NCBI RefSeq assembly: GCF_964058995.1
Contig: NZ_OZ060382.1
Location: 124,001-188,000, forward strand
Direction of reading: 5' to 3'
Source of the DNA: Buchnera aphidicola (Chaitophorus populicola)
GTDB taxonomy: Bacteria; Pseudomonadota; Gammaproteobacteria; Enterobacterales; Enterobacteriaceae
DNA: 64,000 bases
The translations under genes and the position numbers were made by a program. This document shows positions 11,543 to 53,193 of this stretch, one piece after another. Below the pieces are notes generated by a model. That model was given only the letters and a program-made list of their open reading frames with translations. It did not search any database and was not told the DNA's origin. How positions within the stretch are numbered: the stretch's first letter is position 1; each line of letters opens with the position of its first letter.

Positions 11543-14263
11543 ATGTTTAAAATTAATATAGATGGGAAAGACTATAATGTTCACTCATCAAGTAATTTAC
11601 TTCAAGTTTGTTTAACTTTAGGATTTAATATTCCTTATTTTTGTTGGCATCCAAAACTAGGTAGTGTAGGAGCATGTAGACAATGTGCTGTAAAAAAATA
11701 TCAAGATAAAAATGATGTTTCTGGAAGAATTGTTATGTCTTGTATGACTCCTATAGAAGAAAATTCTATAATTACTATTAATGATATTGAATCTAAAAAT
11801 TTTAGAAAAAATATTATTGAATTATTGATGTTAAACCATCCACATGATTGTCCTATATGTGAAGAAGGTGGAAATTGTCATTTACAAGATATGACAGTTA
11901 TGACTCAACATACTCATCGTCGTTATAGATTTGAAAAAAAAACATATAAAAGTCAATATTTGGGATTTTTTATTTCTCATGAAATGAATCGATGTATTTC
12001 TTGTTATAGATGTGTCAGATATTATAAAGATTATGCAGATGGAAAAGATTTTGATGTATATGGTTCTAATCAAAATATTTTTTTTGGTCGATTTCAAGAT
12101 GGAGAATTAGAAAGTGAGTATTCTGGAAATTTAATAGAAGTTTGTCCAACAGGTGTTTTTACTGATAAAACGCATTCAAAAAATTATACTAGAAAATGGG
12201 ATTTACAGAATGCTCCTAGTATATGTTCTCACTGTAGTATTGGATGTAATATTACTGTTGGAGAAAGATATAATAAAATTAGACGTATAGAAAATAGATA
12301 TCATGAAGATATAAATAATTATTTTTTATGTGATTTAGGTCGCTTTTCATATGGATATTCTAATTCTAAAGATAGATTAAATCATTGTTATATAAAAAAT
12401 AAAAATATATATCAAAAAATTGATTTCAATATAGCAATAAAAAAATTTGTTAAAATACTTCGTAATTCATCAGTTATAATTGGTATTGGATCTCCTCGCG
12501 CTAGTATTGAAACAAATTTTATGTTAAAAACTTTAGTTGGTGAAAAAAATTTTTCTACTGGTATGATTGATATAGATCATAAATGTGCATCTTTGATTTT
12601 TAAAATATTAAAAAAAAATACTATTAAAATACCATCTTTAAAAGAAGTTGAAGATTATGATGTAATTTTTATTTTAGGAGAAGATGTAACACAAACTTCT
12701 TCAAGATTAGGTCTATCTATTAGACAAGCTTTAAAAAATATTCCTAAAAAAATATTAAAAAGTAATAATATACATAATTGGCATGCTTTAGCAATAAAAA
12801 ATTTATCTTATTCTAACAAGAATTTTTTATTTATAACAAATGTATATAAAACAAAATTAGAAGATTTATCAAATTTTTCTTATGAAGCGCACGCACAAGA
12901 TCAAGCTTATTTTGCATTTTGTATTTCAGAAAATTTAAAAGATAACTTTTCATATTCAGATACGTTACCAGATTATTTAAGAGAAAAATCCAGATATATT
13001 ACAAATATATTACTTCAAGCAAAAAAAGTTTTAATTATTTCTGGATCACATTCTCGTAATTTAGATTTAATTAAATCTTCTTATAATATTGCAAGTAGTT
13101 TAAAAAAAGTAGGATCACAAGTTGGTTTAATTTTTTTAACACCTTATTCAAATTCTATGGGAACTTCTATTATTAATGGACGATCTGTAAATAATGTTTT
13201 AAATCAAGTTAAAAATAAAAACAATTCTACATTAATTATTGTAGAAAACGATTTATTTTGTGCATTTTCTAAATCTGATTTAAAAAAAACTTTAAAGAAT
13301 ATTAATAATATTATTGTTATAGATCATCAAAAAACAAAAATTTTTAATTATGCGAATATTTTTTTCCCAGCTGCAAATTTTTTTGAAAGTTCTGGGACTT
13401 TAATAAATTATGAACTCCGAGCACAAAGATTTTTTCAAGTATATAATACAAATTTTTATGATAATAAAATTAATATTCTTCCTGCTTGGAAAATTTTAAA
13501 TTTATTAAATAAAAAAAGAGACTCTAAAAATAATTTTTTTAATAATTTAGATGAAATTATTAATGCATGTATACAAAATATATCTTTTTTAAAGAACATA
13601 AAAGAAGCTGCACCTGATTCATCTTTTAAAGTCATAGGGCAGAAAATTCCTCGTTCTTCAAATAGATCTAGTGGACGGACTTCTTTAAGAGCAGATATTG
13701 ATGTTCATGAAATTTCTCAAATACAAGATAATGATACAATGTTTGCATTTTCTATGGAAGGTAGTGGAATTTACAAAAAATATACATCTTTTATTCCTTT
13801 TATTTGGTCTCCTGAATGGAATTCATCTCAAGGCATTCATAAATTTCAAAAAGAAGTTTCTGGAAGTTTATTATCTGGTAATACAGGAAAATTTTTATTA
13901 CATAATAAATTAAATAATAAATATATGAGCTTTTCTAAAGTTCCAATTAGATTAAATAAAACTAATAATCTTGTTATTGTACCGTATTATTTATTATTTG
14001 GAAGTGAAGAGATTAGTCAATATTCTTCAGTTATTCAAAAAAAAATGATTAGTCCATATTTAATAATTAATACAAAAGATGCTCAACGTTTAAAAATATC
14101 AAATAAAAATAAAGTTTCTTTTACATATTTATCAGATACTTACACTTTTTATACAAGATTTTCTGATAGTCTAGCTTTAGGATATGTAGCTTTACCTATA
14201 GGTCAATCTAGAATTCCTATTTCTTTAATTGGAAAAGAAATACAAGATTTAAAGGAAGTATAA
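11543..14263 (+). CDS. nuoG: NADH-quinone oxidoreductase subunit G
   Basis: Largest peripheral subunit of complex I, carrying several iron-sulfur clusters. About 906 residues (E. coli about 908). The N-terminal ferredoxin domain has [18 protein letters not shown] and CMTP, followed by [18 protein letters not shown] and [14 protein letters not shown] further ligand set, CSHCSIGCN, begins the molybdopterin-oxidoreductase-like region. The C-terminal half is less conserved and Asn/Lys-rich. A TTG at 11528 could add five residues, but ATG at 11543 gives [13 protein letters not shown], which aligns with the family start, and GGA lies at a usable distance before it. It follows nuoF after about 100 noncoding bases. 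Confidence 0.94.
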
Positions 14264-14264
14264 A

Positions 14265-15242
14265 ATGAATTATTTATTTATAAAAAATTATGATTTTATA
14301 TTAAATTTATTTAAAACTTTTTGCATTTTTATTATAATAATTTTTTTTGGAGCGTTTTTAAGTGTCATAGAAAGACGTGTATTAGCTTTATTTCAAAATA
14401 GATATGGTCCGAATAGAGTAGGATATTTTGGTTCATTGCAGTTATTTGCTGATATGATTAAAATATTTTTTAAAGAAGATTGGACTCCTCCTTTCGCAAA
14501 TAAGTTTATTTTTAATATTGCTCCAGTATTAGCATTTAGTACTGTTTTTTTAATATGTATAATTATTCCATTTGATATTAATTTTTGTATATTTAATTTA
14601 AAAATCGGAATATTATTTTTTTTAATGATGGCAAGTTTATCTGTTTATTCAATATTATTAGCAGGTTGGTCTAGTGGAAATAAATATTCTTTATTAGGTG
14701 CAATACGAGCTGCAGCTCAAACTATAAGTTATGAAATTTTTTTAGGTTTATCAATAATGCCAACGGTAATTAAATGTGGATCTTTTAATTTAATAGATAT
14801 TATTGATAATCAAAAACATTTATGGAATGTCATTCCACACTTTTTTAGTTTTATTATATTTTTTATTTCAGCTTTAGCAATATGTCATCGACATCCTTTT
14901 GATCAACCAGAATCTGAACAAGAACTTGCTGATGGTTATCATATAGAATATTCTGGTATGAAATTTGGAATGTTTTTTATAGGAGAATATATTTCTATGA
15001 TAATTATGTCTTTTTTAATTACATCTCTATTTTTTGGAGGTTATTATGGTATATATTGTTCTTCTTATATTTGGTTTTTTTTAAAATCCTTAATTTTTAT
15101 ATTATTTTTTATATTAATTCGGGCTTCTTTACCGAGACCAAGATATGATCAAATGATGATATTTGGATGGTTAATATGTTTTCCTATTGCTTTAATAAAC
15201 TTAATTATTATTGCATTTTTTACATTAATTTATAGAATTTAG
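14265..15242 (+). CDS. nuoH: NADH-quinone oxidoreductase subunit H
   Basis: Membrane subunit that forms the quinone tunnel with NuoB and NuoD. The 325 residues (E. coli 325) form about eight hydrophobic helices. Conserved loops are visible: [18 protein letters not shown] near 37-53 and [23 protein letters not shown] near 213-235. The start is one base after the nuoG stop, with AAGGAAG as ribosome site inside nuoG, so translation is probably coupled. Confidence 0.97.
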
Positions 15243-50650: not shown

Positions 50651-51178
50651 ATGAAACATTCTATAGAAGTTATTTTACCTGCTTATAAGTTAAATTCTAG
50701 AGTGAAAGAATTAGGAATGCAAATTACGGAAAATTATAAAAATAGTTGTAATGAAATAATTTTAATAGGTTTATTAAAGGGTTCTTTTATTTTTATTGCA
50801 GATTTATGTAGAGCTGTTCAAATAAATCATAAAATAGATTTCATTACTATTTCTAGTTATGGAAATAATCATTTTTCTAATTTAGATATTAAAATTTTGA
50901 AAGATTTAGACGAAAATATATATGGAAAAAATGTTCTTATTATAGAAGATATTATAGATTCTGGTCGAACTTTAAATAAAGTATTAAAATTATTAAAATT
51001 GAAAAAACCTAAATCTTTATCTATATGCACTTTGTTAGATAAACCAGAATGTAGAGAAGTAGATATAATTATTGATTATGTAGGATTTTCTATACCTAAT
51101 GATTTTGTTGTAGGTTATGGTCTTGATTATGCTCAATCTTATCGTCATTTACCATATATAGCACGAGTTATATTTTAA
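50651..51178 (+). CDS. hpt: Hypoxanthine phosphoribosyltransferase
   Basis: Purine salvage enzyme that joins hypoxanthine to PRPP (from Prs) to make IMP. The 175 residues (E. coli 178) match closely: [56 protein letters not shown], the PRPP motif [17 protein letters not shown] near 98-114, and the C-terminal [28 protein letters not shown]. The flexible loop between SSYG and DIKILKD has lost its usual threonine-arginine pattern. No strong ribosome site is seen. Confidence 0.95.
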
Positions 51179-51238: not shown

Positions 51239-51255
51239 AAAAAAAAAAAAAAAAA
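51239..51255 (+). repeat. 17-base poly(A) tract, intergenic
   Basis: Seventeen consecutive A residues between hpt and pcnB. Runs this long are scarce in the window; a second run of the same length lies inside pcnB. It may be a mutation hot spot, and its exact length should be treated with caution because homopolymers are hard to sequence. Confidence 0.8.
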
Positions 51256-51409: not shown

Positions 51410-52603
51410 TTAATTATAAAAATTTTTTTTATATTTTATATTTAAATATTTATGTTCAATTTTTTTTTTTAAAATATATAAAGTATATGATTCAAAAAAT
51501 ATTTTATTTTTTTTTATCCTGATAGGAATTTTTTTTTTACTATGAGTAATAATAATTAATATTTTCCATATTTCTTTAATTTTATTAATAATTTGCTTAG
51601 GTATAGATAATAACAAAGAGGCTTTTTTAAGAATAAATTTTAAAGATAGTCGTATTGCATTTATATGAGTAATTTTTTTTTTTTTTTTTATTTTTATTAT
51701 ATTAAAAATATATGGATACCATAATATTGCAGACCATAATAAAGATAGATGATTTTTTTTTTTTATTTTAAATCTTTGATCATTTTTTTTTAAAATAGAA
51801 ATAATTAATTTTTTAATTAAAAAATTAATTTTTTTATTATAATAAAGAAATGGAAATGGAAAAATTATTTTTAATAAAGAAAAACTTTTAAGTTTTTGAT
51901 AAGCTTTATATCCAAATCCCATTTGTAAAATTTTATTTAATTCATTGTAAAGTCTAGCTGATGGTACATGAGATATTAATTTAGATAATTTAGGAATTGC
52001 GTGAGCAGTTTTTTTTTCTATTTTCATGTTTAATTGTACAGAGAATCTAATTACTCTAAGTATTCTAACTGGATCTTCTCTATATCTTGTTTCAGGATCT
52101 CCAATTAATCGAATTATTTTTTTTTTTATATCTTGAATGCCTCCTACATAATCACGAATACTTAAATCTATTACATTAAAATATAAAGTATTAATAGTTA
52201 AATCTCTTCTTTCAGCATCTTCTTCAATTTGCCCGAAGATATTATCATATAGTAAAATTCCTAACTTATCTTTTTTTTTATGAATTTTTATATGATTTTT
52301 ATTATGATGATGTCCTCTAAAAGTAGATACTTCTATAATCTCTTTTCTAAACATAATATGTGCAATTTGAAATCTTCTACCGATTAATCGACAATTTCTA
52401 AATAATTTTTGTAATTCTAATGGTGTAGCATTAGTTGTTAAATCAAAGTCTTTCGGTTGTTTACCCATAATAAGATCTCTGACACTACCTCCTACGAGAT
52501 AAGCTTCATAACCTGATTTATGCAATCTAAATAAAATTTTAATTGCATTTTTACTAATCTTATTTCGAGATATATTGTGTTTTTTTTTAGGAATTATTCT
52601 CAT
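51410..52603 (-). CDS. pcnB: Poly(A) polymerase I
   Basis: Adds poly(A) tails that mark RNA for decay. It is PcnB rather than tRNA nucleotidyltransferase: YEAYLVGGSVRDLIMGKQPKDFDLTTNATP near 33-62, FRNCRLIGRRFQIAHIMFRKEIIEVSTFRGHHH near 68-100, and DNIFGQIEEDAERRDLTINTLYFNV, then LIGDPETRYREDPVRILRVIRFSVQLNMKIE. All follow the E. coli PcnB order. At 397 residues it is about 65 shorter than E. coli (465), lacking the basic C-terminal tail. The last 150 residues are weakly conserved and contain a run of 17 A (plus-strand T at 51673-51689) coding for five lysines. Frame integrity depends on that run being correct. Confidence 0.93.
   Translation of the reverse strand: MRIIPKKKHNISRNKISKNAIKILFRLHKSGYEAYLVGGSVRDLIMGKQPKDFDLTTNATPLELQKLFRNCRLIGRRFQIAHIMFRKEIIEVSTFRGHHHNKNHIKIHKKKDKLGILLYDNIFGQIEEDAERRDLTINTLYFNVIDLSIRDYVGGIQDIKKKIIRLIGDPETRYREDPVRILRVIRFSVQLNMKIEKKTAHAIPKLSKLISHVPSARLYNELNKILQMGFGYKAYQKLKSFSLLKIIFPFPFLYYNKKINFLIKKLIISILKKNDQRFKIKKKNHLSLLWSAILWYPYIFNIIKIKKKKKITHINAIRLSLKFILKKASLLLSIPKQIINKIKEIWKILIIITHSKKKIPIRIKKNKIFFESYTLYILKKKIEHKYLNIKYKKNFYN
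51673..51689 (-). repeat. 17-base poly(A) tract inside pcnB
   Basis: Seventeen T on the plus strand, read as 17 A in the pcnB message, spanning codons for Ile-Lys(5)-Ile. It is the longest coding homopolymer in the window and a probable site of polymerase slippage. A one-base change would shift the frame for roughly the last 90 codons. Confidence 0.85.
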
Positions 52604-52740: not shown

Positions 52741-53193
52741 TTATCCTAGAATTTGTTTATCTCTAATTTCTTCTAATGTTTTACAGTCAATACATAAATT
52801 TGCGGTAGGTCTAGCTTCTAATCTTTTAATACCTATTTCTACTCCACAAGAAGAACAATAACCAAATTCTTTGGATTCAATTTTTTTTAAAGTTCTATTA
52901 ATTTTTTTAATTAATTTATTTTCTCTATCTCTATTTCTTAGTTCTAAATTAAATTCTTCTTCTTGAACAGCTCTGTCAATTGGATCTGGAAAATTAGAAG
53001 ATTTTTTAGAAATATCATAAACATCTTTATTATTTTTATTAAGTTGTTTTTTCCATGTTTCAAGAATTATTTTAAAATGATGAATTTGTTTATAATTCAT
53101 ATATTTTTCATTTTTTTTACTTTTATAAGAAGATACTCCTGCAATAGAAAGAATACTTAAAGAAGATTTTTTATTTTTTTTTTTTTTATGCAT
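52741..53193 (-). CDS. dksA: RNA polymerase-binding factor DksA
   Basis: Binds the secondary channel of RNA polymerase and, with ppGpp, retunes rRNA and amino-acid promoters. The 150 residues (E. coli 151) keep the coiled-coil tip motif DPIDRA near 82-87 (DxxDxA), [21 protein letters not shown], and the zinc finger CSSC near 114-117 with CIDC near 135-138. The N-terminal [14 protein letters not shown] matches E. coli, preceded by MHKKKKNKK. That stretch includes a run of 14 A (plus-strand T at 53174-53187) directly after the start. The very high conservation of the rest suggests it is still an active regulator. Confidence 0.96.

Follow-up and report, generated by a model that had tools for sequence, protein, structure and literature searches.

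A 17-A run inside the poly(A) polymerase gene pcnB of a Buchnera genome is probably a by-product of base composition

In the Buchnera aphidicola strain from Chaitophorus populicola, the message for pcnB, the gene for the enzyme that makes poly(A), itself contains 17 consecutive A. This raises the question of whether the run is a feature in its own right, at which slippage shifts part of the transcripts out of frame, a sign that the gene is decaying, or what the codon usage of this genome produces in a Lys-rich loop. We addressed it for the run within the window (the whole 64,000-nucleotide stretch of DNA that was analyzed) and by comparison with related genomes.

pcnB and its A-runs

The gene lies on the minus strand at 51410-52603, is intact, and encodes 397 aa. 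Its product scored 367 bits against the PcnB subfamily model TIGR01942 (cut-off, 305.65), and two domains were found over cut-off, i.e., the head domain PF01743 at residues 34-165 (129.5 bits) and the RNA-binding domain PF12627 at residues 192-250 (60.8 bits). The longer model NF008634 scored 446.9, below its cut-off of 702, and PF12626 (arginine-rich C-terminus) scored 16.1 bits on residues 311-384, with a cut-off of 22; the same residues are included in the alignment to the E. coli enzyme. E. coli poly(A) polymerase (3aqm) matched residues 2-384 with an E value of 5.9e-116, and E. coli PAP I was also the top match in a Foldseek search with the structure model of PcnB. The alignment to E. coli PAP I (PDB 3aqk, 3aql, and 3aqm) is continuous from residue 2 to residue 384 and takes in almost the whole region that follows the tract. 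The free-living relatives have a C-terminal extension, whereas the Buchnera protein lacks it and ends sooner, and E. coli PAP I has QESG where Buchnera PcnB carries the Lys-rich loop. By these sequence matches, the product of the gene is PcnB/PAP I, the poly(A)-making enzyme.

The initial annotation had described 17 A in the pcnB message, a second run of about 12 A, and a frame that is open across the first, and all three observations held. The long run (plus-strand T at 51673-51689) is exactly 17 and consists of the last A of an ATA codon, five AAA codons for Lys (K306-K310), and the first A of an ATT codon, giving the peptide IKKKKKI. The second (plus-strand T at 51753-51764) is exactly 12 and in frame, and the 397-codon ORF stays open across both. 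Because 87 codons remain after the 17-A run, the estimate that a shift would cost about 90 C-terminal residues is also right. Two 11-A runs in the message are likewise in frame, one near the 3' end of pcnB (51460-51470) and one before the 17-A tract in the region of the head domain (52117-52127), the latter in most relatives too. pcnB has the highest A-run density of all genes in the window, a point against reading its runs as ordinary, and the 17-A run is the longest coding run there. We note that a second 17-A run, which is intergenic, lies on the plus strand at 51239-51255, in the gap where the 3' ends of pcnB and a phosphoribosyltransferase gene (50651-51178) face each other. The gene dksA, which directly precedes pcnB in the same orientation, has an in-frame 14-A run at 53174-53187 in its first codons (MHKKKKNKK).

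Codon usage and the tract in related genomes

Lys is written AAA in 1,879 of 1,973 cases (95%) in the window. We kept the protein fixed and redrew synonymous codons according to window usage in 5,000 trials; at the pcnB site, the run reached a length of 17 or above in 29% of the redraws and of 15 or above in 79%. Over all ORFs of the window, 68 coding-strand A-runs of at least 9 were seen vs 66.2 (sd, 3.5) expected, and 9 of at least 12 vs 8.4 expected. A use of AAG to break up Lys runs, as poly(A) avoidance would entail, was not apparent, as AAG showed no enrichment within the Lys runs of the window, where numbers are small. Genome-wide counts, obtained from a pattern search plus fetched stretches, gave 22 A-runs of at least 14, nearly all inside open frames, and five of at least 17, and this genome had the fewest A17 matches of any species in the genus. 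Because AAA codes for 95% of Lys and the loop is Lys-rich, the run, which the initial annotation had treated as a special feature, is not special. Moreover, because the codon null was matched and A17 is commoner in other species of the genus, the run can be read as a composition effect, and we consider it very probable that the 17-A run in pcnB is an ordinary by-product of base composition.

The initial annotation had also called for a comparison of the run in related genomes. The identical in-frame 17-A tract recurs in two other species of the genus (G009 and G010), while in the two nearest relatives (G004 and G008) a single AAT codon interrupts the tract and leaves a run of 12, and the remaining species have runs of 7 to 10. 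Thus, 17 A is found in 3 of the 10 genus species with pcnB and is absent or interrupted in 7, and the frame is always kept. In a second symbiont genus, the tract position has 3 to 12 A. An alignment of 29 PcnB sequences, E. coli-like ones included, has zero gaps over 29 columns around the tract, which argues that the tract grows and shrinks by substitutions rather than by indels, and that species share a tract length because the length of the loop is fixed and not because the homopolymer is maintained. Mapping 17 A onto the PcnB tree takes at least three changes, and well-supported branches make two of these unavoidable; the three may be one gain and two losses, on a tree that is poorly resolved with respect to common ancestry.

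These comparisons also bear on the possibility that the run length is a sequencing or assembly error. Errors are frequent in long homopolymers, and the assembly shows a frameshift in dnaA next to a run of 14 A. However, the pcnB run is in frame, the conserved reading frame continues after it, and the same length is found in the genomes of two other species, and we regard such an error as extremely unlikely. In the reading that we prefer, a PAP I loop that is variable in sequence and fixed in length (KLTQESGL in the E. coli type) would have drifted to IKKKKKI under AT-biased mutation, and the AAA usage for Lys would then spell this peptide as 17 consecutive A.

Selection and structure downstream of the tract

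The codons after the tract (51410-51672, minus strand; 87 residues) encode conserved C-terminal helices. For residues 311-382, dN/dS was 0.20 (bootstrap, 0.10-0.40) in two independent pairs with good support and 0.23 (bootstrap, 0.14-0.37) in four pairs. In four pairs, independence being shown for two of them, 65 of 116 differences were at third positions (P 4e-7). The segment before the tract (residues 251-305) had a dN/dS of 0.31 to 0.47 and is less constrained. Residues 311-382 are under purifying selection. Mean identity within the genus was 0.67 for residues 311-382 vs 0.68 for residues 251-305, and in the second genus as well as in a small set of other enterobacterial relatives, it is residues 251-305 that are less conserved. 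The suggestion that the C-terminal third is the least conserved part consequently stands for the last ~15 residues, to which poor conservation is confined, and not for residues 311-382. The relaxed selection that it was taken to fit is not supported, given bootstrap upper limits of at most 0.40 and conservation equal to that of the preceding segment.

In a structure model of PcnB built from 15 sequences, in which residues 1-145 have a pLDDT below 50 and which is useful from about residue 160 on, the tract ends a helix (residues 286-309) and is followed by helices at residues 313-331, 336-354, and 369-386 with a pLDDT of about 90. Based on the alignment and this model, truncation at the tract would take away a conserved folded part of the enzyme.

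Another reading is that the tract marks a pcnB gene heading for loss, with selection relaxed downstream. We found no pcnB match in one species of the genus (G005), although cca is kept there, and in one genome of the second genus (G070; locus L090), pcnB is broken by eight indels of 1-2 nt, mostly in A-runs, with the neighboring dksA open; this break is either decay or the result of homopolymer sequencing errors. Based on these two cases, pcnB appears dispensable in some lineages. In addition, dN after the tract exceeds that of the head domain. On the other hand, dN/dS after the tract is lower than in the preceding segment, weaker C-terminal conservation is a trait of the family that free-living relatives share, and pcnB is intact in 9 of the 10 other species of the genus. 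Early decay of pcnB is therefore unlikely. The studied Buchnera strains have been described as lacking pcnB except for two, one of which holds a split copy (PMC10851558). Because pcnB is intact in these 9 of 10 species and in 15 of 16 genomes of the second genus, this statement does not extend to the groups compared here; the broken G070 copy may be the split case.

Slippage at the tract and a frameshifted dnaA

As the initial annotation had it, there is published evidence of polymerase slippage on poly(A) tracts in Buchnera and Blochmannia (PMC5574713, PMC3017870, and PMC5009743). In Buchnera transcripts, insertions and deletions climb exponentially with run length, the longest run measured being 11 nt (PMC5574713), and because of this rise, the slipped share at 17 could be large. 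The share of transcripts corrected in frameshifted genes of endosymbionts is reported to be 12-50% (PMC5009743), and three AAA codons are enough for ribosomes of E. coli to start sliding (PMC4363877). The five successive AAA codons of pcnB are within this sliding range, although sliding was demonstrated with reporters in E. coli systems and not in Buchnera. Given these published data on slippage and sliding, some wrong-frame pcnB product is likely, and pcnB transcripts of mixed length at the tract are plausible.

Loss of one A would give a 313-residue product ending in LLI, and gain of one A would give a 325-residue product with a foreign tail of 15 residues. The corresponding products of the other species would have 309 to 348 residues (one A less) and 311 to 335 residues (one A more). 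We found no conserved alternative-frame product at the tract among the compared species, as the tails read in the shifted frames are in most cases short, differ in both length and sequence, and are mostly unrelated between species. This speaks against a maintained truncated isoform, which had been one way to read the site. A programmed-slippage isoform of the dnaX type would have a conserved tract and a conserved alternative stop; here, the 17 A is confined to 3 of 10 genus species, and the tails vary. A closer likeness is to the genes of Buchnera and Blochmannia in which frameshifts at poly(A) tracts are rescued by transcriptional slippage (Tamas et al. 2008, as cited in PMC3017870, PMC5009743, and PMC10851558). 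As cited there, those cases also have a long A-run inside a coding gene of an AT-rich endosymbiont, with slippage plausible, but their reading frames are broken at the DNA level and full-length product depends on slippage, whereas pcnB is in frame, its 397 codons being open at the tract, and needs no slippage.

Slippage could nevertheless be functional if a shorter PAP I, with the head and RNA-binding domains and without the last helices, were a used isoform or a regulated lowering of output. That poly(A) slippage is known in Buchnera (PMC5574713), that such large shares of frameshifted endosymbiont transcripts are corrected (PMC5009743), and that the catalytic head and PF12627 precede the tract all fit this idea. 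It conflicts with the absence or interruption of the tract in 7 of 10 genus species with pcnB, with shifted stops and tails that are not conserved, and with the purifying selection and confident helices of the region that would be lost, and we consider functional slippage very unlikely. It is equally doubtful that so large a share of pcnB transcripts is out of frame that the level of full-length PAP I would be set by slippage inside its own gene.

A clearer candidate for slippage in this genome is dnaA, which lies outside the window on the minus strand (L040, 996-2434; G000:C1 about 12895-14333) and is frameshifted around a 14-A run (G000:C1:13913-13926) with a 10-A run nearby. Its two parts are in different frames, the first matching positions 1-85 and the second positions 101-437 of the DnaA model, and this would be the arrangement that slippage rescue needs. 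In nine other species, dnaA is in a single frame (the G005 sequence is a weak match only and is probably another gene), and as the frameshift is confined to a single genome, it could stem from an error in the assembly. A search within the window for frameshifted genes at A/T runs of at least 7 gave only two matches, both at gene junctions. Elsewhere in the genome, its other coding run of at least 17 is an in-frame 17-A run (L041; G000:C1:24377-24393) in a gene that, identified by eye, reads as the heat-shock sigma factor gene rpoH, and the longest run, of 20 (L051; G000:C1:412273-412292), is at the start of a frame that reads as rplV, where we saw no ATG.

Taken together, the observation behind the initial annotation is confirmed, its interpretation is partly supported, and the finding is ordinary. 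We put the probability at about 87% that the 17-A run is a composition by-product, that full-length PAP I is made, and that any slippage is noise. Selection would keep the frame and the C-terminal helices, RNA polymerase slippage and perhaps ribosome sliding would probably yield some out-of-frame products of 313 or 325 residues, and these would presumably be non-functional. The picture of Buchnera is unchanged, as long A-runs in coding sequence and slippage on them were already known. What is added is a quantitative reason for such runs, namely codon usage together with Lys-rich loops, and the demonstration that, past the longest coding run in the window, the reading frame is still held by selection. 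The gene for which slippage would have real consequences in this genome is dnaA, provided that its deposited sequence is correct.
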